35,116 bases of DNA from a virus. A model generated the notes under the pieces. It worked only from the letters and a program-made list of their open reading frames with translations, was not told the origin of the DNA and made no database searches. The stretch is from positions 1 to 35,116 of IMG/VR virus record IMGVR_UViG_3300010392_000345; one strand, written 5' to 3'. Shown here piece after piece: positions 12,271 through 31,945 of the stretch (positions within the stretch are counted from its first letter, which is position 1; each line of letters opens with the position of its first letter). A program made the translations under genes and the position numbers.

Positions 12271-12284
12271 TGACGTTAATGTCA
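12271..12284. promoter_or_regulatory. Operator palindrome, one-base variant
   Basis: TGACGTTAATGTCA is one change from the perfect palindrome. It ends 8 bp upstream of the -35 at 12293, the usual position relative to the promoter. Confidence 0.75.
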
Positions 12285-12292
12285 CAAATCAT

Positions 12293-12321
12293 TTGACAAA
12301 CTAATGGTACTAGGCGATACT
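12293..12321 (+). promoter_or_regulatory. Sigma-70 promoter with upstream operator
   Basis: -35 TTGACA at 12293-12298, 17 bp spacer and -10 GATACT at 12316-12321. It drives the gene at 12364, which has its own terminator. Confidence 0.88.
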
Positions 12322-12363
12322 TGAATGGTACCCAAAAAACCACCAATGGTAGGAGACATAACC

Positions 12364-13152
12364 ATGTCCGCAACTAAAACCGCCACTAAGGCAACCACCA
12401 AAAAGAAAGCGGATGTAGACCTGATTGAGGCTACAGTCCACGAAGTCGAAAACCTGACCGCAGCAACCGCACTCCCGGAAGCAGATCGCCTGCTGAACGA
12501 TGCGGAGTTCAACTACTTCAAGTTGGGCGGTGTACTCGTCGTTATTCAAGAGAATAGCTGGTGGGAATCAGAAGGGTTCGAGAACTTCAAGGAATTCATC
12601 GAACAACGTATCGACATGCCTTACCGCAAGGCCATGTACCTGATCAACATTTACCAGTGCTTGGTAGATGCCGGCATCAAGTGGGATTCGGTGAAAAACA
12701 TCGGATGGACCAAGCTGAAAGACATTGCTCCCCTGCTTACCGAGGACAATGTGGACGAGTGGGTCCAACGCGCCGAAACCATGACCACCCTCGAACTGCA
12801 GGAATACATCAAAGCCCATAAGGCTGGCGGTGGCTCTGCCGAGGAAGGTGATGAAGAAGAAACCAAAGCGACCAAGGTCAGCACCATGACCTTCAAGTTG
12901 CACGAGGACCAGCGTGAAACCATCCGTACTGCGCTGGACAAGGCTCAGGGTGACAACAACACCGAGTATGACGCGGTGGCCCTTGAATACATCTGTATGC
13001 AATATCTGGAAGGCGGTCTGGGCAAGAGCAAGAAGTCCGAGCCACAGAAATCGCTGAAAGACTTGATGGCCGAGGCGGATGTAGAAGGTACACTGGCCAT
13101 CTTTGAAGAACTCTGGCCTGACGTGGAACTTTCCGTGGAAATGCCTGAGTAA
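12364..13152 (+). CDS. Unknown, well-expressed protein of a single-gene unit
   Basis: This 262-residue protein stands alone between a strong operator-linked promoter and a strong terminator. The ATG at 12364 follows AGGAG; an in-frame ATG at 12325 lies at or before the expected transcription start and is rejected. The N-terminus is a Lys/Thr/Ala-rich tail. Residues about 45-150 form a helical domain with several Trp and the pattern FKEFIEQRIDMPYRKAMYLI, which resembles HTH-containing proteins that decide DNA binding in plasmids and phages. A low-complexity acidic linker follows (GGGSAEEGDEEE), then a second helical part. The layout is that of an abundant DNA-associated protein, but no known function can be given. 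Confidence 0.75.
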   Translation: MSATKTATKATTKKKADVDLIEATVHEVENLTAATALPEADRLLNDAEFNYFKLGGVLVVIQENSWWESEGFENFKEFIEQRIDMPYRKAMYLINIYQCLVDAGIKWDSVKNIGWTKLKDIAPLLTEDNVDEWVQRAETMTTLELQEYIKAHKAGGGSAEEGDEEETKATKVSTMTFKLHEDQRETIRTALDKAQGDNNTEYDAVALEYICMQYLEGGLGKSKKSEPQKSLKDLMAEADVEGTLAIFEELWPDVELSVEMPE

Positions 13153-13189
13153 AACGCAACCGGCAATGACGGTAGCGAACTTGTGGGAC

Positions 13190-13216
13190 GGGGCCTTTCG
13201 GGGCCCCTTTTCTTTG
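13190..13216 (+). terminator. Rho-independent terminator
   Basis: GGGGCC (13190-13195) and GGCCCC (13202-13207) pair around a 6-nt loop, followed by TTTTCTTTG. It closes the single-gene unit of the 12364 protein. Confidence 0.85.
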
Positions 13217-13225
13217 TTCTTTTAT

Positions 13226-13254
13226 TTGACAAACCATACGGGGTATACGATACT
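13226..13254 (+). promoter_or_regulatory. Sigma-70 promoter
   Basis: -35 TTGACA at 13226-13231, 17 bp spacer and -10 GATACT at 13249-13254, then TGAAAGTAC as at several other promoters. It has no operator; a terminator occupies that position. Confidence 0.87.
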
Positions 13255-13290
13255 GAAAGTACAGAAACACATACCCACAGGGGAAACCAA

Positions 13291-13524
13291 ATGACCAACT
13301 CAGTAGCCACCCGGATCGAAGAAGACGCCCAATACCTGATCAACCTTGGCCTCCCGGCTGACCGGATCAACAAGCTCTCTGCCGAGGAAATCAATACTGC
13401 TATGTTGGCCATTGAAAACGCGGAAGACGACCTACTCAACGGCAAGACCACCCTTGAAGATATGTGGGCGGACAACGAGAACCAAGCATTCGCAATGTAT
13501 GTAGAAGGTGCACTGGGCTGGTAA
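13291..13524 (+). CDS. Small unknown helical protein
   Basis: This 77-residue acidic protein is the first gene after a promoter. The longer frame from 13183 would start before the promoter, so the ATG at 13291, preceded by AGGGGA, is the start. It is predicted to be mostly helical (RIEEDAQYLINLGLPADRI, EEINTAMLAIENAEDDLL) and has no recognised domain. Confidence 0.75.
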   Translation: MTNSVATRIEEDAQYLINLGLPADRINKLSAEEINTAMLAIENAEDDLLNGKTTLEDMWADNENQAFAMYVEGALGW

Positions 13525-13550
13525 GCTCAGCACCACAAGGAGGGAGAAAC

Positions 13551-13997
13551 ATGAAAGAATTGAAATTCAGCAGTGACCCATACTCAGATGTAAACCGGGC
13601 CCGGTATCTCTATTGGATTGCTCGTAGAAAGTTTGGGCAGGCCCGTAAGCCAGACTCAGATATGACTTTCTCGAAAGTGTCCAAAGTCATGGCTGCAGCC
13701 AAGAGGCACCTGAAAGCCGTGGCCTATGAAGCCCGTGGCCAGAAGTACACCCCACCCGAGAGATACCACCCGGAAGACCACACCTACGACCACTTCCGAA
13801 TCCAAGGCATCCCATGCTTGCTGGTGCTCACCTACCATGTACCTGCAGAGCCGGCCAGCCAGTGTGAGCCCCCTGTTATGGAGGAAGTGGAATGGGTGGT
13901 CACTGATGACCGTGGTTACCGTATGCGGTGGTTAGAGAAGAAAATGACCAAGGAAGAAAGGCGAGAAGCAGACGAGATTCTGCTGAAAATCATTTGA
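13551..13997 (+). CDS. Unknown protein with basic N-terminal half
   Basis: This 148-residue protein starts after an excellent AAGGAGGGAG ribosome site at 13551; the frame open from 13464 overlaps the previous gene and is not needed. The first 60 residues are basic and helical (ARYLYWIARRKFGQARK, VMAAAKRHLKAV). The middle contains aromatic and His residues (RYHPEDHTYDHF), and the end is charged. No family is recognised. Its TGA stop lies inside the next operator palindrome. Confidence 0.75.
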   Translation: MKELKFSSDPYSDVNRARYLYWIARRKFGQARKPDSDMTFSKVSKVMAAAKRHLKAVAYEARGQKYTPPERYHPEDHTYDHFRIQGIPCLLVLTYHVPAEPASQCEPPVMEEVEWVVTDDRGYRMRWLEKKMTKEERREADEILLKII

Positions 13998-14008
13998 CAT
14001 TAATGTCA
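13995..14008. promoter_or_regulatory. Perfect operator palindrome
   Basis: TGACATTAATGTCA, extended by flanking TT and AA to an 18 bp perfect palindrome, ends 7 bp before the -35 at 14016. It contains the stop codon of the upstream gene. Confidence 0.85.
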
Positions 14009-14015
14009 AATACCT

Positions 14016-14044
14016 TTGACAAACCCAAGTACATAGATGATACT
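14016..14044 (+). promoter_or_regulatory. Sigma-70 promoter with upstream operator
   Basis: -35 TTGACA at 14016-14021, 17 bp spacer, -10 GATACT at 14039-14044, then TGAAAGTG. It drives the long series of small genes from 14081. Confidence 0.88.
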
Positions 14045-14080
14045 GAAAGTGTCAATTAACACCACAAAGGAGTGGAGATC

Positions 14081-14287
14081 ATGGAGAAGCAAGTTGCAAA
14101 AACAGACCTGACCCTCGGTAAAGTGTGTAGCCACGCTGGAACCAAGGTTGAAGTCATGGGCTTCCAATCTGTCTACCAAGGCATTGGAAAATCTGTCGTT
14201 GTTAAGGTTCGTGCCCTGCACAACAACAACGTGTATCGCGTGTCCCCCGGCCAGCTTGAAGAAGTTGAGCCGGCGGCTCTCCATTGA
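14081..14287 (+). CDS. Small beta-rich protein, unknown
   Basis: This 68-residue protein starts after AAGGAGTGG. A sequence like GKVCSHAGTKVEVMGF followed by VVVKVRALHNNNVYRVSP suggests a compact beta barrel of SH3 or KOW type, and the C-terminus GQLEEVEP would fit. It is the first gene of its operon, so probably well expressed. No function is recognised. Confidence 0.72.
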   Translation: MEKQVAKTDLTLGKVCSHAGTKVEVMGFQSVYQGIGKSVVVKVRALHNNNVYRVSPGQLEEVEPAALH

Positions 14288-14311
14288 TCCACTCTCACAC
14301 GGAGGTAAACC

Positions 14312-14710
14312 ATGAACACCATTAACGCAGTGTTGGAAGAACAGCTTGCCACTTACCATAAGATCAAGCAGCACAATGAAGAAGAATGGGGCCGGGGCGA
14401 CCTGACAGACGATGAATTGTCCTTAAAGCTCCAACGCTTGAACCTGCAGATCGCTACGGTGTGGGAGATCAAGGAAGCCCTGAGAACCACGGTGACCAAG
14501 ATCGACGACACCCTGCAGGAGAGCTTCAAGGTGTTGGCTCCATTCTGCCACCCGGACTTCTGCCAGACTTTGCCCAGCAACGGTAGTATGGGCGATGACG
14601 CACCCCTCTTTGTGAGAAACGGTGCAATGATGACCATAGGCGACTGCAGGGCCGCATCCCGGCTCCATGACAAGGTTGCCAAACTACTCGATGGAGACAA
14701 CGAAGAATGA
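14312..14710 (+). CDS. Unknown helical protein
   Basis: This 132-residue protein has a CGGAGG ribosome site. The first 75 residues are a long charged helical region with coiled-coil character (EEQLATYHKIKQHNEEEW). The second half contains a few Cys (CHPDFCQ, GDCRAAS) but no clear metal motif. It overlaps the next gene by ATGA. No family is recognised. Confidence 0.72.
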   Translation: MNTINAVLEEQLATYHKIKQHNEEEWGRGDLTDDELSLKLQRLNLQIATVWEIKEALRTTVTKIDDTLQESFKVLAPFCHPDFCQTLPSNGSMGDDAPLFVRNGAMMTIGDCRAASRLHDKVAKLLDGDNEE

Positions 14711-15036
14711 CATTCAAGAAAGGTGATCCAGTACAAACCAATGCTTTTGACTTTGGGGTAGTTATCGAAGACCCGGCCCCATTCCCGAAAGATGAGGTTT
14801 GGGTGGAACTATACCCAAGCGGAGTGCAGCGGTTTTTCTCTGCCCATAATCTGGTGAAGTTGGAACCTGCCCGGTCCTTTGACCCGGGGGTTATTATGGG
14901 GAAGGTGGAGTCGGCTATGGCCGAGTACATGGACAAGCACGAGAAGTGGGGCAAGCGCCTTGCCAAGCACACCAAGGGCACCCCTATCCTCAATGATCTG
15001 GCTGTAATGATCACCAAGAAGCTGACCGGGGGCTGA
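14707..15036 (+). CDS. Small protein with SH3/KOW-like N-terminal domain
   Basis: In this 109-residue protein, residues 1-55 look like a small beta barrel: FKKGDPVQTNAFDFGVVIED, then VWVELYPSGVQRFF and LVKLEP, the usual strand pattern of SH3-like or KOW domains. The second half is basic and helical. It is translationally coupled to its upstream neighbour and ends one base before the next ATG. The role is unknown. Confidence 0.7.
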   Translation: MTFKKGDPVQTNAFDFGVVIEDPAPFPKDEVWVELYPSGVQRFFSAHNLVKLEPARSFDPGVIMGKVESAMAEYMDKHEKWGKRLAKHTKGTPILNDLAVMITKKLTGG

Positions 15037-15037
15037 C

Positions 15038-15541
15038 ATGCAGACTACCACGACCAAGAAGAAAACCCTTGCCCAACTACTGTTGGAGTGGGAGAAAGAA
15101 AACGGTCGGTGTTGGGTAGAGCAGATTGAAGAATGGGCCAAGGAGGGCGAAGTCTGGCGCACAGTTGCCGATAAGCTGGGCGTAGATATGAAGAACCTCA
15201 AGAACTTCTGCTACAAGCGGGAGTTCAAGTTCTCATGGCAGGGCCGCCAGTCAAAGGTCTACCGCAAAAGTAAAAGCGAGCAGATCAAGAACAACCCTAT
15301 CCCGAATCGACCAATCCCCAAGTACTATGCTTTTGGTAAGTACAAGTCTTTGGCAGAGCACTGCCGAGAGTGGGGCATTGGCCACCCAAACACCGTCCTG
15401 TACCGGATGAGTAAGAGAGGAATGACCTTGGAGCAAGCATGGGAAACACCGTGCATGACCAAGCGAGAAGCGGGCCTTTACGCACTGAATATCCAGAGAG
15501 AAAAGCGCCGATCCAGAAAAGCCGAGAAGGTGGGAGCCTGA
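15038..15541 (+). CDS. Basic DNA-binding-like protein with HTH repeats
   Basis: This 167-residue protein is very basic. Residues about 28-65 look like a helix-turn-helix (WAKEGEVWRTVADKLGVDMK). Residues about 105-140 (KYKSLAEHCREWGIGHPNTV, then YRMSKRGMTLEQAWETP) match the repeat often found next to HNH homing nucleases, in which SL-E-C/A-GI leads to a helix and ends in TLEQA-ETP. There is no HNH motif here, so this would be a stand-alone DNA-binding remnant or regulator. It could be a regulator or nuclease partner. The resemblance is seen; the function is inferred. Confidence 0.68.
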   Translation: MQTTTTKKKTLAQLLLEWEKENGRCWVEQIEEWAKEGEVWRTVADKLGVDMKNLKNFCYKREFKFSWQGRQSKVYRKSKSEQIKNNPIPNRPIPKYYAFGKYKSLAEHCREWGIGHPNTVLYRMSKRGMTLEQAWETPCMTKREAGLYALNIQREKRRSRKAEKVGA

Positions 15542-15542
15542 C

Positions 15543-15860
15543 ATGGCTCGTCGTCGTAAGCGCCCGTTCCAGATAACCTGCCGGTGTGGGGCCTACCATT
15601 TCCCCCATCGGATTGGGGGAGGCAAGTGTACCGGTGACATGTGGGCGGAAGCCTACCACCTGTACGTGAGCAATCAATGTAGGCACTGCAACTGCAATCA
15701 CAATGGGGTGTGTGAAGTTGGCACCGGGGCCGAGAGCCTGAAACATTGTGAGGCCTATATGGAAGCAATGAGAGCGGAGAAACAGCCAGAAGTCCCCATG
15801 ACGGAGGAAGAACTGGCGGGAGGCTACGATGACTATTATGACGAAAGTGAACCACATTGA
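15543..15860 (+). CDS. Cysteine/histidine-rich small protein, zinc-binding
   Basis: This 105-residue protein begins MARRRKRPFQ and has several metal-binding patterns: TCRCGAYHFPHR with GGKC about ten residues later, then QCRHCNCNHNGVCEV, and CEAY. Seven or more Cys with His suggest one or two zinc sites. The end is acidic. Such small zinc proteins are common in phage accessory regions without known roles. Its 3' end overlaps the next gene. Confidence 0.72.
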   Translation: MARRRKRPFQITCRCGAYHFPHRIGGGKCTGDMWAEAYHLYVSNQCRHCNCNHNGVCEVGTGAESLKHCEAYMEAMRAEKQPEVPMTEEELAGGYDDYYDESEPH

Positions 15861-16098
15861 ACTGAGAACCCAACTGGACATGCGGGGGCTAATTGACAAG
15901 TACGTGCACAACGGCTGGTCACTCGAAACCCGGGAGCCCACGGTAATCATTACCCGGGGCAGGATTGCCAAGCATGTTGACCATGGGGTTCTCAAAGACG
16001 GAAGACCCACGGAGGACCACGATGAACAGAATGATCAGGCCAAACCTAACCACCCCGAGTCTGGAACAAAAAGTGGAGAGGCAAAGGCCATTCTTTGA
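15829..16098 (+). CDS. Small unknown protein
   Basis: This 89-residue protein starts at 15829, preceded by GGGAGG with five-base spacing. The N-terminal part (IELRTQLDMRGLIDKYVHNG, VIITRGRIAKH) may form a small mixed fold. The C-terminal third is polar and low complexity. It overlaps the next gene by 77 bases, which is longer than usual here, so either its end or the next start may be misjudged. Confidence 0.55.
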   Translation: MTIMTKVNHIELRTQLDMRGLIDKYVHNGWSLETREPTVIITRGRIAKHVDHGVLKDGRPTEDHDEQNDQAKPNHPESGTKSGEAKAIL

Positions 16099-16657
16099 AT
16101 CCAGCGCAATGCAGGCAGGCCTACCTCTCGATAGGTTGGAGGGCCCGCGCAATGACCGGTATGAGTCCATGGAAGCAGAGTGGGCTTGGCGGGGCTGGAT
16201 CGCCGGACTGCAGGTAAACAACGCACTCGACATAGCTGAGGAGAGAGACCGGGTGGGGGAAGAACTGGGTAAGCTGAGGGAATGTAAAGCCCTGCTGATG
16301 GAACACGCTATCAAGCACGAGAATGACTCTGCTTGGGATGAAGCCAAGTGGCATGAGCAGGTTGCCGGTCTTCTTGGCCCGGACCTTGAAAGGTTGGACA
16401 ACCTCACTGCCTACCGGGTCGGGGACTATGACATGGTGCTGGCTTACAACCCATCGGACGCTATGGTGGTCCTGAGCGAAACCATTGGAGTCGCAGAGCT
16501 TAACAGTCAGGGGCTCACCCTCGATGACGTGGAGGAGGTCTCCGAAAAAACCCTGAGCCTGCCCCTGAGAGACGAGGACGGTAACGACCTTCGTCAGACC
16601 TTGCAGCAATTCATCTATGCGGTGGCCAAGCGGGGCTACTTGCTGGGGTGGGAATGA
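16022..16657 (+). CDS. Unknown accessory protein with W-rich helix and coiled coil
   Basis: This 211-residue protein starts at 16022 because GGAGG at 16011 is well placed; an in-frame ATG at 15965 has no such site. Residues about 45-90 (YESMEAEWAWRGWIAGLQ followed by a heptad-rich ERDRVGEELGKLRECK) are the Trp-plus-coiled-coil pattern seen in Ea22-like phage accessory proteins. The C-terminal part is acidic. Its stop overlaps the next start by ATGA. No function is known. Confidence 0.65.
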   Translation: MNRMIRPNLTTPSLEQKVERQRPFFESSAMQAGLPLDRLEGPRNDRYESMEAEWAWRGWIAGLQVNNALDIAEERDRVGEELGKLRECKALLMEHAIKHENDSAWDEAKWHEQVAGLLGPDLERLDNLTAYRVGDYDMVLAYNPSDAMVVLSETIGVAELNSQGLTLDDVEEVSEKTLSLPLRDEDGNDLRQTLQQFIYAVAKRGYLLGWE

Positions 16658-16824
16658 GCAAGAGAGCTTGGTACAGATGCAATGAGCGAAAAGCCAAGGC
16701 ACTGATCGAGCAAGGCATTACCGTCCGCTACGAGCGGGGCATCTATTACTACCAGCGCCGGGTGGACAACAAGGGGAAGAAGAATGGAAGAAAGAGACGA
16801 GATAGCAAAGGCCCTACTTCCTGA
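16654..16824 (+). CDS. Small basic protein (56 aa)
   Basis: This very basic ORF starts with ATG overlapping the previous stop (ATGA) and encodes MSKRAWYRCNERKAKALIEQ, then a Tyr-rich stretch (RYERGIYYYQRR) and a Lys/Arg tail. Position, coupling and the lack of any other gene in this interval support it as real. It overlaps the next gene by 41 bases in another frame. The composition suggests nucleic-acid binding, but this is a guess. Confidence 0.6.
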   Translation: MSKRAWYRCNERKAKALIEQGITVRYERGIYYYQRRVDNKGKKNGRKRRDSKGPTS

Positions 16825-17011
16825 GGTTTACCGGGAGTACCAAACCTCAGTCCGCAGCGGGGACGCAGAGCCCTCCATGGATTGGCGCAGAGACATTGCC
16901 CGGTCAGCCTACAAGATGGCGGACGCCTTTCTGCAGGTGCGAGCCAATCAACCTGACCGAACACCACCCATGGCACCGCCACCGACCAGCGAATATGTGG
17001 GGGGTAAGTGA
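16784..17011 (+). CDS. Small helical accessory protein
   Basis: This 75-residue protein has an AGGGGAAGAAG ribosome site. Its helical part EVYREYQTSVRSGDAEPSMD followed by WRRDIARSAYKMADAFL is the type of helix found in Ea22-like or related phage proteins; a Pro-rich end follows. It overlaps the next gene by ATGA. The role is unknown. Confidence 0.65.
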   Translation: MEERDEIAKALLPEVYREYQTSVRSGDAEPSMDWRRDIARSAYKMADAFLQVRANQPDRTPPMAPPPTSEYVGGK

Positions 17012-18444: not shown

Positions 18445-18847
18445 CGAAGACTGGGAAGGATGGAAGGAGTGGGAGAAGGAGCAGAAGGAAGATCGCCGGC
18501 AGAAGAACATGGAGGTGTTGGAGACCTGCCCGTATGAGTTCACCACCAAGAACCATGGCGAGTCCTTACTGTTCCGGGAGGAAGGAAAGCCCCCGATAGA
18601 CTTTTACCCGGGCACTGGACGCTGGCGTATAGTGGGGGTGGGGGCAAAAACCTTCCGTGGAGGGGCCACCGCCTTCCTGAGCTGGTACAGCAAGCAGAAG
18701 GCCCTACCATCCCAAGGGTCCGGAGGAATACCCTCTCAAAAGGCCTCACACAAGCTCACCAATGAATTAGGACAGGAGGTGAAACCCTACAACCACCCCA
18801 CCATTCCCCCATGGGATGACGATGCACCGGAGAATGAGCTTGTTTGA
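18437..18847 (+). CDS. Conserved-type phage protein, unknown
   Basis: This 136-residue protein starts at ATG 18437 after GGAGACC; an in-frame ATG at 18392 lies deeper in the preceding gene. The N-terminus is charged and helical (EDWEGWKEWEKEQKEDRRQK). The core, about residues 33-90 (YEFTTKNHGESLLF, then IDFYPGTGRWRIVG), has the look of a small beta domain I have seen in many phage accessory proteins, where YPGTG-W is conserved. The tail is Pro-rich. Its stop codon lies inside the next operator. Confidence 0.65.
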   Translation: MSSEDWEGWKEWEKEQKEDRRQKNMEVLETCPYEFTTKNHGESLLFREEGKPPIDFYPGTGRWRIVGVGAKTFRGGATAFLSWYSKQKALPSQGSGGIPSQKASHKLTNELGQEVKPYNHPTIPPWDDDAPENELV

Positions 18848-18858
18848 CATTAATGTCA
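18845..18858. promoter_or_regulatory. Perfect operator palindrome
   Basis: TGACATTAATGTCA overlaps the stop codon of the preceding gene and ends 7 bp before the -35 at 18866. Confidence 0.85.
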
Positions 18859-18865
18859 CTCACAT

Positions 18866-18894
18866 TTGACAAACCCAACCACATGTACGATAAT
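18866..18894 (+). promoter_or_regulatory. Sigma-70 promoter, GATAAT -10
   Basis: -35 TTGACA at 18866-18871, 17 bp spacer, -10 GATAAT at 18889-18894, then an A-rich start. It is the best-matching -10 of the set and drives the RarA-C-like gene. Confidence 0.87.
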
Positions 18895-18921
18895 AAAAAA
18901 ATAAACCCAAATGGAGCCATT

Positions 18922-20019: not shown

Positions 20020-20028
20020 GGAAAGAAC

Positions 20029-21398: not shown

Positions 21399-21468
21399 CT
21401 CATTGATATTTTTGGGGGAAAAGGAAATCCCCCAATAGCCTATAGACAAAAAGTTTCCCCTCCTGACT

Positions 21469-21474: not shown

Positions 21475-21499
21475 CCCGCCAGAAATGTCCTATGCTCCT

Positions 21500-21546: not shown

Positions 21547-21629
21547 CCCTGAGTGATTTGAACCGATTGCCCTGAGGCCCCGCAATACACGCCTTGGGGG
21601 AAGGAAACCAACCAAAAAGGCGAGAGTAC

Positions 21630-23138
21630 ATGAAGATACTGCTTGACCCCATCTATACGACTTTACCCTCAAGGTGTGCCTCAACGATCAAGATGGTAAG
21701 GGTATTTGAACACCTGTCAGAGAAGTACGATGACGCCTATTTCTACTGGATTGTCCCCAACGATCTGCCTGCCGAGGAACTGAACTGGCTGCCCCAGAGT
21801 GACCGGATCATGTATATCCCCCTGCAGATGGATGAGGAGCTGGACCGGTACAAGCAGTACAGCCGACTGGCCTTTGACCTTGAGAACGTGATTGCCTTTG
21901 ATGGCGACTACTGGGACTGGGATATTCTGGTAACGAACAAGTCCGCCATGGTTCCCCTGTACCGGATGATCTGCTGCAAGCCGAGAGCCCAACGGCTGAA
22001 GTGGTGCCGGAAGATCGTGATCCTAGAAGACATGCCGATGATGAGCTTCAAGGGATTTGTGCAGACGCCACCGGGAGACTACTCAGACTACCTGACCATG
22101 TTGGGGTATCTGACTGCTGACAAGGTGGCGATCTGTGCCTATTGGGAGAAAGCCAAGATCATGGAGCTGGCGAAGAAACACTTTAGCCCGTCGAGCGCCC
22201 GGAAGATTGGCAACAACATAGTCGAAGCCACCCCGTCCCTGTTCCACGATGTTCAGTTCAAGAGCAAGAAGACCGTGGAAGCCACCATCAACCGCAAGAA
22301 GCCGTTTACCATTTCCTTCTCGGGCCGGTTGGTCAAAGGCCACCGCATGGAGGAGATACTGGATATTATGTCGAAGCACTGGATCATGAGGAACAACGAC
22401 AAGCATCCGGTGAACTGTGTGCTGACATCGGCCTCCAAGGGCGTGGGGGCTGGCATCAAAGTCCCTGAGTTCGTGAACGTGGTCCCGGCTCCCCGGGAAG
22501 AATTCTGGCGCATTGTGAAAGAAGAATCAGACGTAGGGGTGTTCCTGAGCGTCGAGGAGGACTACTCCATGTCGGTGATTGAACCACTGACCATGGGCCT
22601 GCCGATTGCCGTGTATAAGTGCGAGTGGTCCGTGGCCTCGTTGGGGGAGGAATACCCATTCTTCATCAAGAGCGCCAAGGAGGCTTATGGAGTCATCAAA
22701 GCCTTCTACGATGATTACGCAACCCAGTACAAAAAGTTCGTGGGCTGGTCCCGTAACCACTTCCTGCCCCTGCTCTTGGAGCGCAACAAGGAGTACACCC
22801 CGGAGATTGTCGATACCCAAGTAGAGCAGTGGAAGAAAGACCTGAAAGAGTGGGGTGAGAACAACACCACCCAGAACGATCTGGTGGACCGCCTTCCGGA
22901 ATTCTTGGAGGGAGGACAGCCCACTATCTTTGAAGCGGTGGAGGCCATGGCCCTGACCTATGGGGACGTGACCACGTTCTTGGAGAAAGCTACCACAGGC
23001 ATCCGCTCCAAGTACCGGCTGGTCTATTCGACGGATTGGAACAGTGTACGTTTGACATTAATGTCAAAACACGGACTGAAGGATACCGGGGTAGCCCCCG
23101 GAGCAATGGGCAACGTGAAGGGGAAGAACCATGAGTAA
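21630..23138 (+). CDS. Glycosyltransferase, GT-B fold
   Basis: This 502-residue protein looks like a GT4-type glycosyltransferase, which moves a sugar from an NDP-sugar to an acceptor. The C-terminal donor-binding half has FSGRLVKGHR at 230-239, FVNVVPA near 281, and the E-x7-E motif in EEDYSMSVIEPL (Glu310, Glu318). The N-terminal half is the more divergent acceptor domain. No signal peptide or membrane segment is seen. A perfect operator palindrome lies near the 3' end. The gene overlaps the ParB-like gene by eight bases. Acceptor could be phage DNA, a virion protein or host surface sugar; the sequence does not show which. Confidence 0.8.
   Translation: MKILLDPIYTTLPSRCASTIKMVRVFEHLSEKYDDAYFYWIVPNDLPAEELNWLPQSDRIMYIPLQMDEELDRYKQYSRLAFDLENVIAFDGDYWDWDILVTNKSAMVPLYRMICCKPRAQRLKWCRKIVILEDMPMMSFKGFVQTPPGDYSDYLTMLGYLTADKVAICAYWEKAKIMELAKKHFSPSSARKIGNNIVEATPSLFHDVQFKSKKTVEATINRKKPFTISFSGRLVKGHRMEEILDIMSKHWIMRNNDKHPVNCVLTSASKGVGAGIKVPEFVNVVPAPREEFWRIVKEESDVGVFLSVEEDYSMSVIEPLTMGLPIAVYKCEWSVASLGEEYPFFIKSAKEAYGVIKAFYDDYATQYKKFVGWSRNHFLPLLLERNKEYTPEIVDTQVEQWKKDLKEWGENNTTQNDLVDRLPEFLEGGQPTIFEAVEAMALTYGDVTTFLEKATTGIRSKYRLVYSTDWNSVRLTLMSKHGLKDTGVAPGAMGNVKGKNHE
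23053..23066. promoter_or_regulatory. Perfect operator palindrome inside glycosyltransferase gene
   Basis: TGACATTAATGTCA, part of an 18 bp perfect palindrome with TT and AA flanks identical to the copy at 13995. It lies near the end of the gene, 78 bp before the ParB-like start. No -35/-10 pair with normal spacing follows it. Confidence 0.65.
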
Positions 23139-23970
23139 GGCGATTGAGCGCACGAAGCAACTGCGCCGGGAAGATATTGACGTAACGAAGCTGATCCCGA
23201 ACGAAGACAACCCCAACGAAATGACGGACGGCCAGTTCAACCTGCTCTATGACAGCATCGAGGAGGGGGGCTTCATTGACCCCATCTATGCCGTGGACTT
23301 GGGCGATGGAACCTATCGTGTCGTGGGTGGCCACCACCGCTTGGAGGTTGGCAAGCTGATCGGGTTTACCAAGGTGCCTTGTACCATCGTGGATAACGCC
23401 CAGTTGGGGGAAGACCTTGAGAAGTTCCAGATGGTGAAGCTGAACACCATCCATGGTCAGATTTCCCCACAGAAGTTCACCAAGCTCTACGATGAACTGA
23501 GCGAGAAGTACAAGGACGATGTGCTTCAGGAGATGATGGGTTTTGCCTCTGAGGAGGAATTCAAGCGGCTGGTGAAACAGACCGGTGAGTCCCTGCCCCC
23601 AGAAATGAAGCAGGAATTCAAAGAAGCCAGTAAGGAGATCAAGACCATTGATGATCTGGCGACCCTGCTCAACAAGATGTTTGCTGAGTACGGCGACACG
23701 CTGGACTACAACTACATGATTGTAGATTTCGGTGGGAAGGATTCTATCTGGTTACGCATGAGCCCGAAGCAGAAGTCTGCCTTCCTCAAGTTGGCCGGCA
23801 CTTGCAAGAACGAGAACCGGGCCATGGACAGCATCATGGAGGCACTGATCCTGCAGCTTGAGAAAACCGGGACCGCCAACCTGCAGGAGATCATTGCGGC
23901 CTGCCCCGAGGTGGAGATTCCGGATCACATGGAAACTCCGACACTGGACTTCCTAGACGCTGAGTTCTGA
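23131..23970 (+). CDS. ParB/Srx-domain protein near terminase
   Basis: This 279-residue protein has an N-terminal ParB/sulfiredoxin-like domain (about 15-110): LIPNEDNPNEM, SIEEGGFIDPIY, and the hallmark RVVGGHHRLEVGKLIGF at about 63-79, where GGHHR marks the nucleotide-binding pocket. ParB-type proteins in phages can be CTP-binding DNA clamps, nucleases or methyltransferase-linked proteins. The C-terminal part is helical and charged. It lies immediately upstream of the terminase genes, a common place for ParB-like genes, suggesting a role in packaging or in DNA marking. Start overlaps the glycosyltransferase stop. Confidence 0.85.
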   Translation: MSKAIERTKQLRREDIDVTKLIPNEDNPNEMTDGQFNLLYDSIEEGGFIDPIYAVDLGDGTYRVVGGHHRLEVGKLIGFTKVPCTIVDNAQLGEDLEKFQMVKLNTIHGQISPQKFTKLYDELSEKYKDDVLQEMMGFASEEEFKRLVKQTGESLPPEMKQEFKEASKEIKTIDDLATLLNKMFAEYGDTLDYNYMIVDFGGKDSIWLRMSPKQKSAFLKLAGTCKNENRAMDSIMEALILQLEKTGTANLQEIIAACPEVEIPDHMETPTLDFLDAEF

Positions 23971-23972
23971 GC

Positions 23973-27196: not shown

Positions 27197-27199
27197 GCA

Positions 27200-27613
27200 A
27201 TGACTAACGCACAACGGGTAAAGCAGTTCATGAACATGGGCGGGCAACAGGTAGACCTACCGGCCAATGAGCCCATGCCCTTTGATGTGCTGTGCCTGAG
27301 GCACCGGTTGGAGACCGAGGAGCACATGGAAATGATCGAGGCCCTGCACAACTATGCCGAGAGTGAGGGCACCAGTGCGAAGGACCGGGCTCATCTGGCC
27401 AAGGAGTTGGCGGACAAGCTGGTGATCTCCTACGGAACCCTGATCGCCATGGGGCTGGACCCGGACAAGGTATTCAATATCGTCCAAGACGAGAATGACG
27501 CCAAGATCGCTACGGGCACCAAGCGGGATGACGGTAAGATCATCGTGTCCCCGGAAGTAAAGGCCCAGTTGAAGCAGGAGACCTACAAGAAGCTGTTGAT
27601 GCTCGTCAGTTGA
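27200..27613 (+). CDS. PRA-PH/MazG-type nucleotide pyrophosphohydrolase
   Basis: This 137-residue protein fits the all-helical NTP pyrophosphatase superfamily, PRA-PH branch, common in phages. The metal-binding acidic residues are in LRHRLETEEHMEMIEAL (Glu38, Glu41, Glu44) and AKELADKLVISYG (Glu69, Asp72); DGKIIVSPE near the end is also typical. It would hydrolyse a nucleoside triphosphate, perhaps clearing unwanted or modified nucleotides. It starts three bases after the deacetylase and has only a weak ribosome site. An operator begins two bases after its stop. Confidence 0.8.
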   Translation: MTNAQRVKQFMNMGGQQVDLPANEPMPFDVLCLRHRLETEEHMEMIEALHNYAESEGTSAKDRAHLAKELADKLVISYGTLIAMGLDPDKVFNIVQDENDAKIATGTKRDDGKIIVSPEVKAQLKQETYKKLLMLVS

Positions 27614-27615
27614 TT

Positions 27616-27629
27616 TGACATTAATGTCA
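27616..27629. promoter_or_regulatory. Perfect operator palindrome, closer to -35
   Basis: TGACATTAATGTCA ends only 4 bp before the -35 at 27634, compared with 7-8 bp at the other sites. Confidence 0.85.
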
Positions 27630-27633
27630 CTAT

Positions 27634-27662
27634 TTGACAAACGGGCAAACGTGTGCGATACT
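27634..27662 (+). promoter_or_regulatory. Sigma-70 promoter with upstream operator
   Basis: -35 TTGACA at 27634-27639, 17 bp spacer, -10 GATACT at 27657-27662, then TGATAATAC. It drives the gene at 27723. Confidence 0.88.
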
Positions 27663-27722
27663 GATAATACGGGCTCAAACAACTGGGTCCGTGTTCTTTA
27701 ATAATTCAAGGAGGGTAATACC

Positions 27723-28019
27723 ATGATCTATGTGATCGTGACCGCCTCAGGCAACTGGGGCAAAGCTGAATCTCTTAACGAAGCAGCCAAACATGCACGG
27801 GTCCGGGCTCAGCCAGTTCGAGCCAAAGTGATGAAGATGGACCCAAGACTGCACAGCGATGTTGGTGTTGATGGCATGGGCGGAGTTGTGTGGAACCGCA
27901 CGGACCAACTCATGGAAGCACCAGAACCCATCAAAGCAGCGGTGAGGGACGTGTGCAACCTCGGCTACTTCAACATCAAAATGTCGAAGGGCAACCTCGT
28001 GATGCAAGTCATCGAATAA
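27723..28019 (+). CDS. Unknown small protein, first gene of its unit
   Basis: This 98-residue protein has an ideal AAGGAGGG ribosome site and follows an operator-linked promoter, so it is likely abundant early after infection. The sequence suggests a small alpha/beta fold (MIYVIVTASG, AAKHARVRAQPVRAKVMKM). A short WNRTD motif and a final strand are visible, but no family. Genes in this position in phages are often host take-over proteins; this is a guess. Confidence 0.75.
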   Translation: MIYVIVTASGNWGKAESLNEAAKHARVRAQPVRAKVMKMDPRLHSDVGVDGMGGVVWNRTDQLMEAPEPIKAAVRDVCNLGYFNIKMSKGNLVMQVIE

Positions 28020-28026
28020 CCATCCG

Positions 28027-28046
28027 GCCCCTGCTTAGGCGGGGGC
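28027..28046 (+). other. Stable hairpin between genes, not a terminator
   Basis: GCCCCTGC pairs with GCGGGGGC over 8 bp (one G-T wobble) with loop TTAG. No T-run follows. It lies just upstream of the AAGGAGG of the next gene and might stabilise RNA ends or modulate read-through. Confidence 0.5.
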
Positions 28047-28068
28047 TACCATTCCCAAGGAGGAAGAG

Positions 28069-28353
28069 ATGCGAGAAATCAAGCACCCACTGGAAGACGA
28101 AGAAGGCATCCCCCTGTTAGTGCAGAGAGTAATCACAGGCCGGGACTTTGAAGTCACCCTGTTCACAGGGCAAGTAGTGGTTATAGCGTCTGAGTTCATT
28201 GAGGATGCCTTCTCTGCCTACATGTTCCTGCTAAGGAAAGGAGTGGCCGACCCAATCCACATGATGAATGACGTGGTACGGCATCCGGTAATCTGGCCCA
28301 CCATTCAGAAAGTTCTGCAGACCGAGTTTTCCCACGACCAGATTCTTTTTTGA
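28069..28353 (+). CDS. Unknown small protein
   Basis: This 94-residue protein has an AAGGAGG ribosome site. It is mixed alpha/beta in style (FEVTLFTGQVVVIASEFIED) and acidic at its start. It shares the transcript with the gene at 27723. Its TGA stop lies inside the next operator. No family is recognised. Confidence 0.72.
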   Translation: MREIKHPLEDEEGIPLLVQRVITGRDFEVTLFTGQVVVIASEFIEDAFSAYMFLLRKGVADPIHMMNDVVRHPVIWPTIQKVLQTEFSHDQILF

Positions 28354-28364
28354 TATTAATGTCA
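28351..28364. promoter_or_regulatory. Operator palindrome, one-base variant
   Basis: TGATATTAATGTCA, one change from perfect, overlaps the preceding stop codon and ends 8 bp before the -35 at 28373. Confidence 0.8.
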
Positions 28365-28372
28365 ATTACTAT

Positions 28373-28401
28373 TTGACAAATTAGTAGGGGTATACGATAC
28401 T
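28373..28401 (+). promoter_or_regulatory. Sigma-70 promoter with upstream operator
   Basis: -35 TTGACA at 28373-28378, 17 bp spacer, -10 GATACT at 28396-28401, then TGATAGTAC. It drives the series from 28442. Confidence 0.88.
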
Positions 28402-28441
28402 GATAGTACCAAGCACATAAATACCCAAGGAGGGTAAGCAG

Positions 28442-28702
28442 ATGAAAGTCACCAAGACCCAGATCAACAACTTCATCAAGACCGTCAAAGAAGATCGCCA
28501 GATGGGCACTCCACACGCCCGAGTGGATGACAACCACAAAGACGTGAAGAACGGGTGGGTGATGCAGATCAAATCTCAGAAGCATGACCTCGTTGCCTAT
28601 GCTTTTGATATTGTTGGGAATATGAGCGCCCTCCACGCTGACGGGTACATCCGCCAGCACATTGGACATGACGAAATCGCCGTGGCACTGGGCCGGTTCT
28701 GA
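28442..28702 (+). CDS. Unknown small protein, first gene of its unit
   Basis: This 86-residue protein follows an operator-linked promoter and an AAGGAGGG ribosome site. It begins with a basic helix (KVTKTQINNFIKTVKEDRQ) and contains a possible beta pair (GWVMQIKSQKHDLVAYAFDI). His-rich ends are seen. No family is recognised; a host-directed or DNA-associated role is possible from its position. Confidence 0.73.
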   Translation: MKVTKTQINNFIKTVKEDRQMGTPHARVDDNHKDVKNGWVMQIKSQKHDLVAYAFDIVGNMSALHADGYIRQHIGHDEIAVALGRF

Positions 28703-28724
28703 GACCGGTCCTTGGGAGCAGCAG

Positions 28725-29060
28725 ATGGCCAAGAAACTGACCAAGACCCAGAAGACAAGGCTCCGCCAAGAACAGCAGCAGAGAGCCAAGGCGGAGCGTG
28801 AGAGACTTGAATCCATCAACCGGGGTCTGGGCCTCACCAATCAGCGGCCAGACCACCTACCAAGCTCTCCGAAGCCCTACAAAAGGGAAACGACCGAGTA
28901 CCCTTCACTGGATACCCAAGCACACGACTGCAGCTACCGTGAGCCCCTGCGCTACACCGGGGACCGGCTGAAGGGTATCGGCATGATGCACAAATCCAAC
29001 CTTGTCCCGATCTTTGACCAGAGTGAGGCCGAGGACATTGCCAAGATGCGGAGAAACTGA
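28725..29060 (+). CDS. Conserved-type phage protein with MHKSNLVPIF motif
   Basis: This 111-residue protein starts at ATG 28725 after GGGAG; the frame open from 28662 overlaps the previous gene. The first half is a basic helix (AKKLTKTQKTRLRQEQQQRA). The second half ends with the pattern REPLRYTGDRLKGIGMMHKS followed by NLVPIF and MRRN, which I recognise as a recurrent motif in small phage proteins of unknown function. Its stop overlaps the next start by ATGA. A nucleic-acid-linked role is only suggested by the basic composition. Confidence 0.7.
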   Translation: MAKKLTKTQKTRLRQEQQQRAKAERERLESINRGLGLTNQRPDHLPSSPKPYKRETTEYPSLDTQAHDCSYREPLRYTGDRLKGIGMMHKSNLVPIFDQSEAEDIAKMRRN

Positions 29061-29221
29061 TGAAGGACGTATTGCTGGGTCTGCAGGTGATTATGGTTTT
29101 TGTCGGGGTGGTAGCCTTACTTCACGGTACCCAACTGGACGTTATTCAAGGCCTGTTGATTCAATGCTTAATAGGGATTGGTCAGGTGTACCTGTTGGTA
29201 GCAAGGACAAGGAGAAACTGA
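29060..29221 (+). CDS. Small membrane protein, two TM segments (53 aa)
   Basis: The ORF starts with ATG overlapping the previous stop and ends with a stop overlapping the next ATG. It encodes two hydrophobic stretches, VLLGLQVIMVFVGVVALL (about 4-21) and GLLIQCLIGIGQVYLLV (about 31-47), with a basic end RTRRN. It would insert in the host inner membrane. Possible holin-like or superinfection-exclusion roles cannot be told apart from sequence. Confidence 0.7.
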   Translation: MKDVLLGLQVIMVFVGVVALLHGTQLDVIQGLLIQCLIGIGQVYLLVARTRRN

Positions 29222-29490
29222 TGAGACGCTGGCCTGATGGAACCCCGGTCATGGTCAAGACCGTAAAGGTCTGGAACAAGCCATATCACATGACCGTCTA
29301 CAACAACGGGGATGGTTACTTCTCACTGGACGGAACGCCAGAGACAGCCACCCCCCTGTCCGAACTTGAGCCGGCCTTTGTCCCCGGAAGTCACATTGTT
29401 CCTGACCACCGGGCGGCGGCAAGGCAGTCCTTCAAGAGCTTTGCCGAGGGGTACACCTACCGAAACATCCAATGGAGATACGCAGAATGA
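29221..29490 (+). CDS. Unknown small protein
   Basis: This 89-residue protein starts at ATG 29221 after AAGGAG (29208-29213); a longer frame from 29002 lies within two other genes and is rejected. The sequence is beta-rich at first (TPVMVKTVKVWNKPYHMTVY) and may be a small barrel; the rest is charged. Both ends overlap neighbours by ATGA. No family is recognised. Confidence 0.7.
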   Translation: MRRWPDGTPVMVKTVKVWNKPYHMTVYNNGDGYFSLDGTPETATPLSELEPAFVPGSHIVPDHRAAARQSFKSFAEGYTYRNIQWRYAE

Positions 29491-29648
29491 AATGCCAATG
29501 CGGCAAGGGCTATGCCAGTGAAGTTGATCATCTGTGTAAGTTCTGCCGGGAGAACAAAGTCAGACGTGCCGTGGCCAAGCAGGTGGGCGTGAAATACCGG
29601 GGCGATGGCATGACCTTGGACCAGTACGAGAAGGCGAAGAAGCTATGA
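29487..29648 (+). CDS. Small zinc-ribbon protein (53 aa)
   Basis: This 53-residue ORF begins MKCQCGKGYASEVDHLCKFC. The CQC and CKFC pairs about 12 residues apart form a zinc ribbon, followed by a basic helical tail. Both ends overlap neighbours (ATGA). Too short for further assignment; the strong coding bias and coupling make it a real gene. Confidence 0.68.
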   Translation: MKCQCGKGYASEVDHLCKFCRENKVRRAVAKQVGVKYRGDGMTLDQYEKAKKL

Positions 29649-30139
29649 CACCAAGTGAGAAGCTAAATAAGGAACTCGAACTCAAGACCACCAAGAGTCT
29701 GCAGCTCTACGGGCCTTTCCTTAACCATGATATTGATGAGGAGTTCCCCGGAAGTGGCTGCGAGGACTACACCAATGAAGTCCTGCTGAAAGGGGTAAGG
29801 CTGGTCAATGAGCAATGGTTGCTTGATCTGGTAGATCGTCATATCAAGTTGGAAGCCACTATTGCCCATATCCAACAGGAAATGGACGGGGAGATTTGGG
29901 AAGCAGATATGCTCCCAGCTATTGCTAAAGCCATCGGTGAGTCAGGCTACCCTGTTTCATCAGATGGTGGTCAAAAAACCCCACTGTGGGGGAATGACGA
30001 AAAGGACACTGACTACTGCCGTTGTGATTCCAAGTCAAAGCACTACAGCGAGTGGATCATTCATGAAGACGGGACCGAGACACAACCCAAAGATTGCGGG
30101 TGTGCCTTCGGCCAATGTGCGAAAGGGTTGATACTATGA
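29645..30139 (+). CDS. Unknown protein with Cys-rich C-terminus
   Basis: This 164-residue protein begins with a polar helix and has a long helical part near 60-95 (LDLVDRHIKLEATIAHIQQE). The last 40 residues contain YCRCDSKSKHYSEW and DCGCAFGQCAKG, five Cys and a His, which suggest a zinc site. Start overlaps the zinc-ribbon stop and its stop overlaps the next start. No family is recognised. Confidence 0.7.
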   Translation: MTPSEKLNKELELKTTKSLQLYGPFLNHDIDEEFPGSGCEDYTNEVLLKGVRLVNEQWLLDLVDRHIKLEATIAHIQQEMDGEIWEADMLPAIAKAIGESGYPVSSDGGQKTPLWGNDEKDTDYCRCDSKSKHYSEWIIHEDGTETQPKDCGCAFGQCAKGLIL

Positions 30140-30912
30140 CTGAACCAAAGAAATTCAACAGCCTGCATGGGTTGGTAAACAACCTGATGGACTTGGGCCG
30201 AGACACGATGGACCGAAGGCTTTACCGGTTAGCCAACACCAAGGACCATTACTGCATCCTTGACCCAGATCACACTATGAGGCATGTCCTGTGTGGGGAA
30301 GCCGACCTCTATTACAAGGGACAGCACCGCGATGGTGAGCCCGAGTACCCGGTGTTCCCGGCTGGCGGCCAGAAAGAAAAGACCTTAGGCCCCATGGAGC
30401 CGGTGTACGTGAATGCCAGTGGAGGGTTCAAGAATGCCAAGGGATTCGTGGTGGGGGGCACCAACGAGGGGGTGGTGGTAGTCCAGTTCGGCAATGACCA
30501 GAAGATACCCGGGACGTTCAAGTTCAGCACCCGGGAAGTCAGTAATGAGCCTATTGTGGAGAAGATCACCAAGGACCACCTGAGAAAGGCCCGAGACAAG
30601 ATGCGGAAAGCCACCGTGGCCTTCAATGAGCTTGCGCGGGAGTACGCCAAGCAGGAGTGCCCCTTAAAGGTTGGAGACAAGACCACCATCCTCAGGAAAG
30701 CTCACCAAGGCAAGACCATGGAGGTCCGTAAGATCACGGTGGACACTGACTATACTGACCGCATCCCAACGTGGCGGGTGAGCGGCCCTGTCCTCAAGAA
30801 GGACGGTAGCCCATCAGAGCACACCGGTTCCCTGAGCCAGATGCAGTGGGACACCCTGCACGAGACGTTCGGGGGCGATATGGACAAATACTTCGAGGAC
30901 TTCAAGCTGTGA
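30136..30912 (+). CDS. Unknown 258-residue protein
   Basis: The start ATG 30136 overlaps the previous stop; the open frame from 30094 adds only residues within the previous gene. The protein is beta-rich in the middle (KGFVVGGTNEGVVVVQFGND, then KIPGTFKFSTREV), followed by a basic helix (DHLRKARDKMRKATVAFNEL) and a second beta-rich part. The middle pattern may be an SH3-like barrel pair. It is one of the larger genes of this accessory series, with no recognised family. Confidence 0.7.
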   Translation: MTEPKKFNSLHGLVNNLMDLGRDTMDRRLYRLANTKDHYCILDPDHTMRHVLCGEADLYYKGQHRDGEPEYPVFPAGGQKEKTLGPMEPVYVNASGGFKNAKGFVVGGTNEGVVVVQFGNDQKIPGTFKFSTREVSNEPIVEKITKDHLRKARDKMRKATVAFNELAREYAKQECPLKVGDKTTILRKAHQGKTMEVRKITVDTDYTDRIPTWRVSGPVLKKDGSPSEHTGSLSQMQWDTLHETFGGDMDKYFEDFKL

Positions 30913-31139
30913 TAGAAGATTCGATTCTGAGTGTGATACTGGTGCTTTCTACCACCCTGATGGCGCACCTGTTTATGAAAAGCCTGTACTTGACCGGCTG
31001 GTGGTTGAGGGCCACTTACCGGGTCAACATCCCAAGCTACCGGCGCAAGGTGTATGTAGGCCTGCTCTTGATCAGTGTAACGGGCATGATGACTGCACTG
31101 GGTGTGTGGGTGAACCTGACACGGTGGGGGTGGGTATGA
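30909..31139 (+). CDS. Small membrane protein, two TM segments, GTG start
   Basis: This 76-residue protein starts at GTG 30909, overlapping the previous stop. It has one hydrophobic segment at about 6-22 (ILSVILVLSTTLMAHLF), a basic loop with YRRK, and a second at about 51-70 (VGLLLISVTGMMTALGVWV). It probably lies in the host inner membrane. Together with the small membrane proteins at 29060, 33175 and 33309 it suggests a set of membrane-acting phage genes. Confidence 0.68.
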   Translation: MIEDSILSVILVLSTTLMAHLFMKSLYLTGWWLRATYRVNIPSYRRKVYVGLLLISVTGMMTALGVWVNLTRWGWV

Positions 31140-31360
31140 TTGACGAGGACAAGCAAGTGCTCGTGGTGGGAGGAGCCAGACCCGGTATACGCACTCTGAA
31201 CGCGGCCATGGCCAAGGCCCTGATCGAGGCAGCCCATACAGAAGTAAAGGCACTGGCGGACAGGAGCGACCTGCAGGACTACGATCAGGGAATGATCGGA
31301 CGCAAGCGCAAGAAACCCAAGAAACGCAGACTGAAGCGAAAGCCGGGAGGAAGGTTATGA
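31136..31360 (+). CDS. Small protein with very basic tail
   Basis: This 74-residue protein starts at ATG 31136 overlapping the previous stop. The N-terminal half is mixed; the last 25 residues are almost all Lys and Arg (RKRKKPKKRRLKRKPGG), a nucleic-acid-binding type tail. A longer frame from 31001 runs through the membrane gene and is rejected. The role is unknown. Confidence 0.68.
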   Translation: MIDEDKQVLVVGGARPGIRTLNAAMAKALIEAAHTEVKALADRSDLQDYDQGMIGRKRKKPKKRRLKRKPGGRL

Positions 31361-31590
31361 GTGTTCGTATGCTATGCCAGTACTCGTTTTGTAAACAGGC
31401 TATTGAGCCCGGCACCACCCAAGAACTGATTGACGTGGCTGAGGGGCATATTCTCTGCCCGAGTTGTGGGTTGCCCCACTTGGTGCCTGAGGAAGACCAG
31501 AAACAGGTGACGGTCCACATCCTTGAAAAGCTGCAGGAGCTTGAGAACCGCCTTGCCCAGTTAGAGCTACCCAACAAGATTGGAGGTTGA
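31357..31590 (+). CDS. Zinc-ribbon plus coiled-coil protein, paralog 1
   Basis: This 77-residue protein has Cys7 and Cys12 in LCQYSFCKQ, then CPSCG near 34, forming a zinc ribbon, and a short coiled coil (VHILEKLQELENRLAQLE). The gene at 32993 encodes the same layout (CRNCG, CPKCG, then SMLERIEKLEEKVKNQ), so the two are likely paralogs. It overlaps its neighbours at the start. Such proteins may be DNA-binding dimers; nothing in the sequence shows a target. Confidence 0.72.
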   Translation: MSVRMLCQYSFCKQAIEPGTTQELIDVAEGHILCPSCGLPHLVPEEDQKQVTVHILEKLQELENRLAQLELPNKIGG

Positions 31591-31592
31591 CT

Positions 31593-31898
31593 GTGAAACA
31601 GATATACAAATTGATCGAGAAAATGCCGGCAGGCGAAAAGGTGTATGAGCTTTACTTCCGAATAGTAGATCGGGAGATACGGTTGGAGCGTGGGGAAGTC
31701 CCCTATCCGGAGAGTGATAATGGCACCCGGTATAACTGTCAGACGTTGGACTTGGAAGGTAACCCCACCAAAGACCTGCCCAGCCACCTACCGGAGATGA
31801 TGAAGTTCATTGATGAACAGCCAGCAGAACTCAGGCTGACATGGACCTTCATGATCATGCGGGGCCTGACGGTCTACCAGTACCTGTACCCAGAGTGA
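31593..31898 (+). CDS. Unknown small protein, GTG start
   Basis: This 101-residue protein starts at GTG 31593, which has GGAGG at 31582-31586 with ideal spacing; a TTG at 31587 is too close to it. Sequence is mixed, with a helical C-terminal part (LPEMMKFIDEQPAELRLTWT). Its TGA stop lies in the next operator. No family is recognised. Confidence 0.7.
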   Translation: MKQIYKLIEKMPAGEKVYELYFRIVDREIRLERGEVPYPESDNGTRYNCQTLDLEGNPTKDLPSHLPEMMKFIDEQPAELRLTWTFMIMRGLTVYQYLYPE

Positions 31899-31909
31899 CA
31901 TTAATGTCA
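31896..31909. promoter_or_regulatory. Perfect operator palindrome
   Basis: TGACATTAATGTCA overlaps the previous stop codon and ends 7 bp before the -35 at 31917. Confidence 0.85.
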
Positions 31910-31916
31910 TTTTTAT

Positions 31917-31945
31917 TTGACAAACTATAAGCACTGAACGATACT
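31917..31945 (+). promoter_or_regulatory. Sigma-70 promoter with upstream operator
   Basis: -35 TTGACA at 31917-31922, 17 bp spacer, -10 GATACT at 31940-31945, then TGACAGTAC. It drives the final series. Confidence 0.88.

Follow-up and report, generated by a model that had tools for sequence, protein, structure and literature searches.

A 14-bp palindrome dispersed over DLP5-like siphophage genomes and phased with promoters suggests a KorB-like phage regulator

What is the role of a 14-bp palindrome that recurs along a phage genome, in some places just upstream of promoters and in others inside genes? The question is raised by a 35,116-nucleotide stretch of IMG/VR record IMGVR_UViG_3300010392_000345 (hereafter the window), a 35-kb virus record that is a fragment of a DLP5-like siphophage and holds repeated copies of TGACATTAATGTCA. 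A lineage-own variant of this 14-bp palindrome was present in all 20 genomes or fragments of the phage group that we compared, mostly at even spacing and, next to promoters, at preferred distances from the -35 element. We consider it about an even bet that the palindromes are dispersed operators and loading sites of one phage regulator resembling KorB of plasmid RK2, with the protein encoded at 12325-13152 (gp066) as the best candidate.

We searched the window for TGACATTAATGTCA with up to 3 mismatches and compared the result with dinucleotide-preserving shuffles. The search returned 11 matches; the shuffles had 1.05 on average and never more than 5. Six copies are exact (7471-7484, 13995-14008, 18845-18858, 23053-23066, 27616-27629 and 31896-31909) and three have one mismatch (2173-2186, TGACATTAACGTCA; 12271-12284, TGACGTTAATGTCA; 28351-28364, TGATATTAATGTCA). 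This confirms the original prediction of nine near-identical copies beyond chance; the two further matches, at 4641 and 25539, have 3 mismatches and may be chance. Three of the nine were said to lie within genes, and all three are indeed inside open reading frames (ORFs). The copy at 2173 falls within the end of ORF 1368-2228, an O-like replication gene, 43 bp before the next ORF. That at 7471 is inside the SF2 helicase gene (7265-8614), with no adjoining promoter, and that at 23053 is in the end of a glycosyltransferase-like ORF, approximately 64 bp before a ParB_N gene.

The other six copies end 4-8 bp before a TTGACA -35 element, again as predicted, and in each of these promoters 17 bp separate the -35 from a -10 element that reads GATACT or GATAAT. 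All six promoters lie on the plus strand. The copy at 12271 stops 8 bp short of the -35 in the promoter for gene 12325-13152 (12293-12321, TTGACA-N17-GATACT). The same promoter sequence follows the copies at 13995 (after 7 bp; 14016-14044), 27616 (4 bp; 27634-27662), 28351 (8 bp; 28373-28401) and 31896 (7 bp; 31917-31945), and TTGACA-N17-GATAAT at 18866-18894 follows the copy at 18845 after 7 bp. At four of the six promoter sites (13995, 18845, 28351 and 31896) the palindrome overlies the end of the preceding ORF, its first TGA being the stop codon. Besides the -35 and -10 elements, the window promoters between 12293 and 31945 share TTTGACAAAC and a downstream GATACTGAnAGTAC; the latter is partly symmetric and could be the site of another regulator. 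Promoters of the same type occur at 4210, 6419 and 13226 with no palindrome, as does a TTTGACAAA box at 609. Directly upstream of two of these palindrome-less promoters (4170-4210 and 13185-13226) a G/C-rich stretch is followed by a T-run, which resembles an intrinsic terminator; a promoter may be insulated by either a palindrome or a terminator.

In the window, the genes for a DnaB helicase, an SF2 helicase, a MerR-type protein, a UvsX-like recombinase, an exonuclease and an unknown protein follow one another as in Stenotrophomonas phage DLP5, with synteny that extends from the DnaB helicase to gp066, and the two have in common the further order ParB_N, unknown protein (gp113) and large terminase (terL). 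Replication module, ParB_N gene and terminase order are thus shared with Delepquintavirus-like siphophages, which is a likeness and not a genus assignment. DLP5 is reportedly temperate and can exist as a phagemid (PMC5834331), and DLP3 forms lysogens (PMC7326821). The same replication module is found, together with phage tail genes, on the 109-kb Rhizobium bangladeshense plasmid p7 (NZ_CP071625.1), a natural phage-plasmid typed as non-mobilizable. A terminase scan of a viral contig collection returned no relative.

Counting the motif in phage genomes, as had been proposed, revealed a group-wide array much larger than the nine sites of the window. De novo counts showed that most relatives have a dispersed dyad, among them Vibrio, Stenotrophomonas, Pseudomonas, Rhizobium and Rhodobacter phages as well as metagenome contigs; in DLP5 the palindrome is TGCAATCAATTGCA, with 26 exact copies. 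When the motif was fitted to each genome, complete or nearly complete genomes had 27-49 sites, compared to about 2 expected by chance at the threshold, which is one site every 1.8 to 3.2 kb. In HC and PJ32, phages whose sites have one degenerate half, only this fit brought the sites out. The variants have the core TGCAAT-NN-ATTGCA in common; in the window and contig G001 the variant is TGACAT-TA-ATGTCA, and hybrid sites, TGACATTAATTGCA, are found in Vibrio phage KarBoss. The palindrome also occurs in most (about 20) of 24 further IMG/VR loci, which were found through the gp066-family protein. Plasmid p7 holds 53 TGCAN6TGCA sites, against 0 for a reversed-pattern control. Three control phages with related terminases, taken lower in the terminase ranking from genera with no gp066 match among the matches listed, have 3, 2 and 0 sites.

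Two simple explanations of the array are less likely. A host regulator is unlikely to be the binder, because the lineage-own variants of one core span unrelated hosts. As for an RNA hairpin, inspection suggests that its stem would have 5 bp, and imperfect sites are found in both orientations. DNA is therefore the likelier target. A second dispersed element, with approximately 8-16 copies per genome, was seen in Vibrio phages KarBoss, VH2_2019, V-YDF132, LV6, VhaS-a and 29Fa.3. It consists of a Shine-Dalgarno-like AGGA or AAGG inside a phage-specific 3-bp inverted repeat (GTC-AGGA-GAC, GGC-AGGA-GCC or GCT-AAGG-AGC).

We measured the distance between site and promoter for 581 sites in the 20 genomes, taking the best sigma70-like promoter up to 60 bp downstream and deriving expected values from nearby control positions; since these genomes are kin, their sites are not all independent. 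The -35 element begins 7-10 bp after 65 sites (approximately 1.6 expected) and 17-21 bp after another 20 (approximately 1.5 expected), with 2 sites at 11-16 bp. The two peaks differ by one helical turn. In the separate IMG/VR loci the peak recurs at 7-9 bp, and a few of their sites fall at 12-15 bp. No site is more constant than that of the gp066-gene promoter, where the palindrome lies upstream and usually 7-9 bp before the -35. It is found there in Stenotrophomonas, several Vibrio, Rhizobium, Rhodobacter and Pseudomonas phages, with V-YDF132, VH2, KarBoss, LV6, RcZahn and SM1 among them, as well as in the plasmid and in 12 of the 24 IMG/VR loci. The distance peaks support the claim that the operator is functionally tied to promoters.

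The placement upstream of the -35 had also been taken to indicate an activator and not a repressor. This does not follow: in plasmid RK2, KorB represses from proximal operators, 4-10 bp upstream of a promoter, as well as from distal ones, at 45 to more than 1,000 bp (PMC11790492). An activator as the only reading is thus rejected as an inference, and we keep it as a rival that we regard as unlikely: the sites would recruit RNA polymerase from -50 and -61, or would lift host silencing in the way of VirB, a ParB-type protein reported to relieve silencing (PMC10770331). A contact activator would require just such a sharp helical phase between site and -35; this keeps the rival in play, since the phasing suits any protein that touches RNA polymerase. 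Moreover, the sites are placed upstream of the promoter, not over it. However, good -35 and -10 elements are already present in the promoters, the majority of sites lack a nearby promoter, and repression by KorB uses the same geometry.

Most sites in the relatives are indeed genic, or intergenic with no promoter, and they are distributed along the genomes about twice as evenly as chance would have it. The coefficient of variation (CV) of their spacing is 0.43-0.72, where random positions give about 0.95, and the difference reaches P < 0.01 for 17 of the 20 genomes (the exceptions are G001, G002 and 29Fa.3). Spacing is likewise even on plasmid p7 (CV 0.56). In DLP5, 9 of the 35 sites are intergenic, in a genome with 5% of its bases between genes (P = 5e-5), and the remainder are genic. 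All 18 exact genic sites of DLP5 are unchanged in phage Summit, versus 50 of 148 random control 14-mers, and 14 of the 18 are unchanged in DLP3, versus 26 of 145. In this sequence comparison the DNA letters of genic sites therefore appear to be conserved beyond the codons alone. The original prediction of a phage-wide signal was right that the signal is real; what it missed were the genic and promoter-less majority of sites in the relatives, the regular spacing and the occurrence throughout the group.

Such an array could also act on transcription already under way. Evenly spaced sites might be roadblocks to elongating RNA polymerase, in the manner of stoperators, so that no long prophage transcript escapes. 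Stoperators have a density similar to one site per 2-3 kb, the DLP5 sites are enriched between genes, many sites of SM1 lie between a stop codon and the following start codon, and two of the window promoters that lack a site are instead directly preceded by a terminator-like T-run. Most DLP5 sites are nonetheless inside genes, and roadblocks leave the helical phasing with promoters unexplained. Stoperators are also described as asymmetric and bound by a monomeric repressor (PMC9283540), whereas here the sites are palindromes with imperfect copies in both orientations. All told, we find roadblocks distinctly improbable. The even spacing irrespective of gene function may instead point to DNA handling, that is, plasmid-prophage partition, condensation, packaging or recombination, with the promoter copies merely filling free intergenic space. 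The predicted ParB-type domain of gp066 and the plasmid lifestyle of the Rhizobium plasmid and the reported one of DLP5 would agree with this. We hold it to be very unlikely, as the sharp phasing at 7-10 and 17-21 bp and the recurrence of a site at one homologous promoter indicate a transcriptional link.

Which protein, then, would bind the palindrome? The gene at 12325-13152 (plus strand; the ATG at 12364 may be its true start) was found in every group genome complete enough to judge, and the dispersed palindrome co-occurs with it. A scan of a plasmid collection with gp066 led to the Rhizobium phage-plasmid, and a scan of a genome contig collection returned none. The AlphaFold model of gp066, made with 26 sequences, has a mean predicted local distance difference test (pLDDT) score of 73, with approximately 81-90 over most of the central domain, and contains a predicted helix-turn-helix DNA-binding domain of the ParB/Noc/KorB type at residues ~42-171. 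Foldseek matched the model to the Noc DNA-binding domain on its site, with a probability of 0.54 and a poor E-value. In VIA-align 2, residues 42-171 matched Spo0J-parS with Z 9.9 (112 residues, root-mean-square deviation 3.1), ParB-parS with 8.9, Noc-NBS with 8.6 and KorB-operator with 6.8. Unrelated structures, the Rubisco accumulation factor Raf1 excepted, had Z ≤ 4.2. The predicted fold thus suggests a ParB-type helix-turn-helix domain. Proteins of this fold bind palindromes of 13-16 bp. We favor gp066 as the binder because the gene is universal and its predicted fold is one whose members bind such sites, and this makes it the best candidate for the palindrome-binding protein. As it has no recognizable ParB_N domain, we do not file it as a ParB; our claim is that it probably works like KorB.

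The main rival is the MerR-type winged-helix protein encoded at 8611-9075 (plus strand; PF13411, 1.4e-10, over the cut-off; phrog_19880, 'transcriptional regulator'), between the SF2 helicase and UvsX-like recombinase genes. It might bind the palindrome in the role of a transcription factor or, like RacA, of a chromosome-binding protein, which we find doubtful. Its model is confident (pLDDT 91) and shows a MerR winged helix with PDB relatives that include RacA, CarH and GlnR/TnrA. Furthermore, the RacA site is a 14-bp palindrome with TGAC...GTCA ends, like the window variant, and the gene is found in Vibrio, Stenotrophomonas and Pseudomonas phages, in most IMG/VR loci and in the Rhizobium phage-plasmid. 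However, searches did not detect this gene in four carriers of the palindrome, namely Rhizobium phage Y1_11, Rhodobacter phage RcZahn and IMG/VR loci L123 and L127; the first two have the gp066 gene. Comparison of protein and motif co-evolution gave the MerR protein no advantage, and an alignment of MerR proteins offered no stretch sufficiently conserved for use as a scan query. At the locus where the MerR-type gene usually sits, RHph_Y1_11 (MN988558.1) and RcZahn (MW677529.1) have none; the two have in common a small, weak XRE-like helix-turn-helix protein. In another phage, locus L122, two MerR-like family genes adjoin each other (5648-6474) and the palindrome is a different variant, TGAACTTAAGTGCA.

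A third protein, encoded at 23131-23970 (plus strand) next to the terminase genes, has a ParB_N domain (PF02195) and no recognized DNA-binding domain; DLP5 has two ParB-domain proteins. We reject it as sole binder, given that no DNA-binding domain is recognized in it and that its gene was not found in seven Vibrio phages with sites. Speculatively, it is a possible cytidine triphosphate (CTP)-switch partner. The system could then be a split ParB, in which gp066 would mark the evenly spaced palindromes and separate ParB_N CTP-switch proteins would load there and slide, coating or silencing the whole genome and tuning promoters by helical phase, as a programmed phage nucleoid. We regard this version as rather unlikely.

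The reading that we prefer, a single KorB-like regulator, would work as follows. A gp066 dimer would sit on each 14-bp palindrome. At promoter sites it would occupy a single helix face immediately before the -35, with its center near -50 or a turn farther off, near -61; from there it would contact RNA polymerase and set the activity of the promoter, that of its own gene included. As for the sign of this regulation, we consider KorB-like repression the likelier option. From the evenly spaced copies within and between genes the protein would be loaded throughout the genome, every part of which would lie within a few kb of a site, and the outcome would be genome-wide silencing or organization, for example in the plasmid-prophage state. 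The proximal and distal KorB operators of RK2 resemble the window and genome-wide sites of the phages; from this we infer a KorB-like global regulator. That gp066 binds the site, whether it represses or activates and what the distal copies do is inferred as well.

Several observations weigh against this reading. The fold match of gp066 is moderate, as is its model (mean pLDDT 73), and Raf1 scores like the ParB-type entries; Raf1 has a fold similar to the ParB-type DNA-binding domain, and we take the match to reflect this shared fold and to be no functional clue. At the level of sequence, gp066 matches none of the ParB families of Pfam or the PDB sequences, and none of the 26 gp066 family members shows a ParB_N CTPase match in the same chain. 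The co-evolution analysis, a comparison of distance matrices with only 15 genomes that had all the proteins, did not discriminate between gp066 and the MerR protein. Several Vibrio phages (for example HC, SIO-2 and 29Fa.3) have no site at the gp066 promoter, and in the Stenotrophomonas phages no classical promoter was found downstream of the sites under the scoring used. Finally, several relatives are described as lytic, and lysogenic silencing is therefore not the whole role.

In the literature that our search covered, outside most subscription journals and the Vibrio phage papers, we found no description of the repeat, and we found no characterized repressor of DLP3 or DLP5. If our reading is true, widespread phages of Stenotrophomonas, Vibrio, Pseudomonas, Rhizobium and Rhodobacter use an apparently undescribed KorB-like network. 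Its many naturally diverged operator-protein pairs would lend themselves to the study of specificity change in ParB-type proteins, and the way in which a genome keeps binding sites evenly spaced within coding sequence could be put to the test. It would also open a way into the control of lysogeny in DLP3, DLP5 and other temperate phages.

Several known systems share features with these phages. As in the stoperators of cluster A mycobacteriophages, many sites are scattered over a phage genome; the stoperators are described as having an asymmetric site and a monomeric repressor (PMC9283540), while the phage sites are not asymmetric but perfect or near-perfect palindromes with a fixed helical relation to the -35. 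The SPBRE of SPbeta is similarly a 15-bp element repeated in a temperate phage and bound by a master repressor, MrpR; unlike here, this repressor resembles tyrosine recombinases and has no ParB-like domain, and the element is described as intergenic (PMC10516654). Noc with NBS and Spo0J/ParB with parS have palindromic sites like those of the phages and are the best fold matches of gp066. They are chromosomal, whereas the phage sites cover the phage genome evenly and are phased with promoters. RacA of Bacillus subtilis, which anchors the chromosome in sporulation, has a MerR-type winged helix like the rival binder, and the likeness of its site is limited to the window variant of the palindrome. 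RK2 has about 12 KorB operators, compared to 27-53 sites in the phages, which are evenly spaced and mostly genic, and gp066 differs from KorB in having neither a recognizable ParB_N domain nor a KorB sequence match. Distal repression by KorB needs CTP-dependent sliding (PMC11790492). The geometry of the sites is nevertheless that of KorB and its OB operators on RK2 (IncP-1), where operators are also dispersed on one replicon, some 4-10 bp before promoters and others distal: the putative phage operators lie at 4-8 bp in the window and peak at 7-10 bp in the group, with many far sites. As with KorB, one regulator with a ParB-type DNA-binding domain, predicted in the case of the phage candidate, would serve many promoters.

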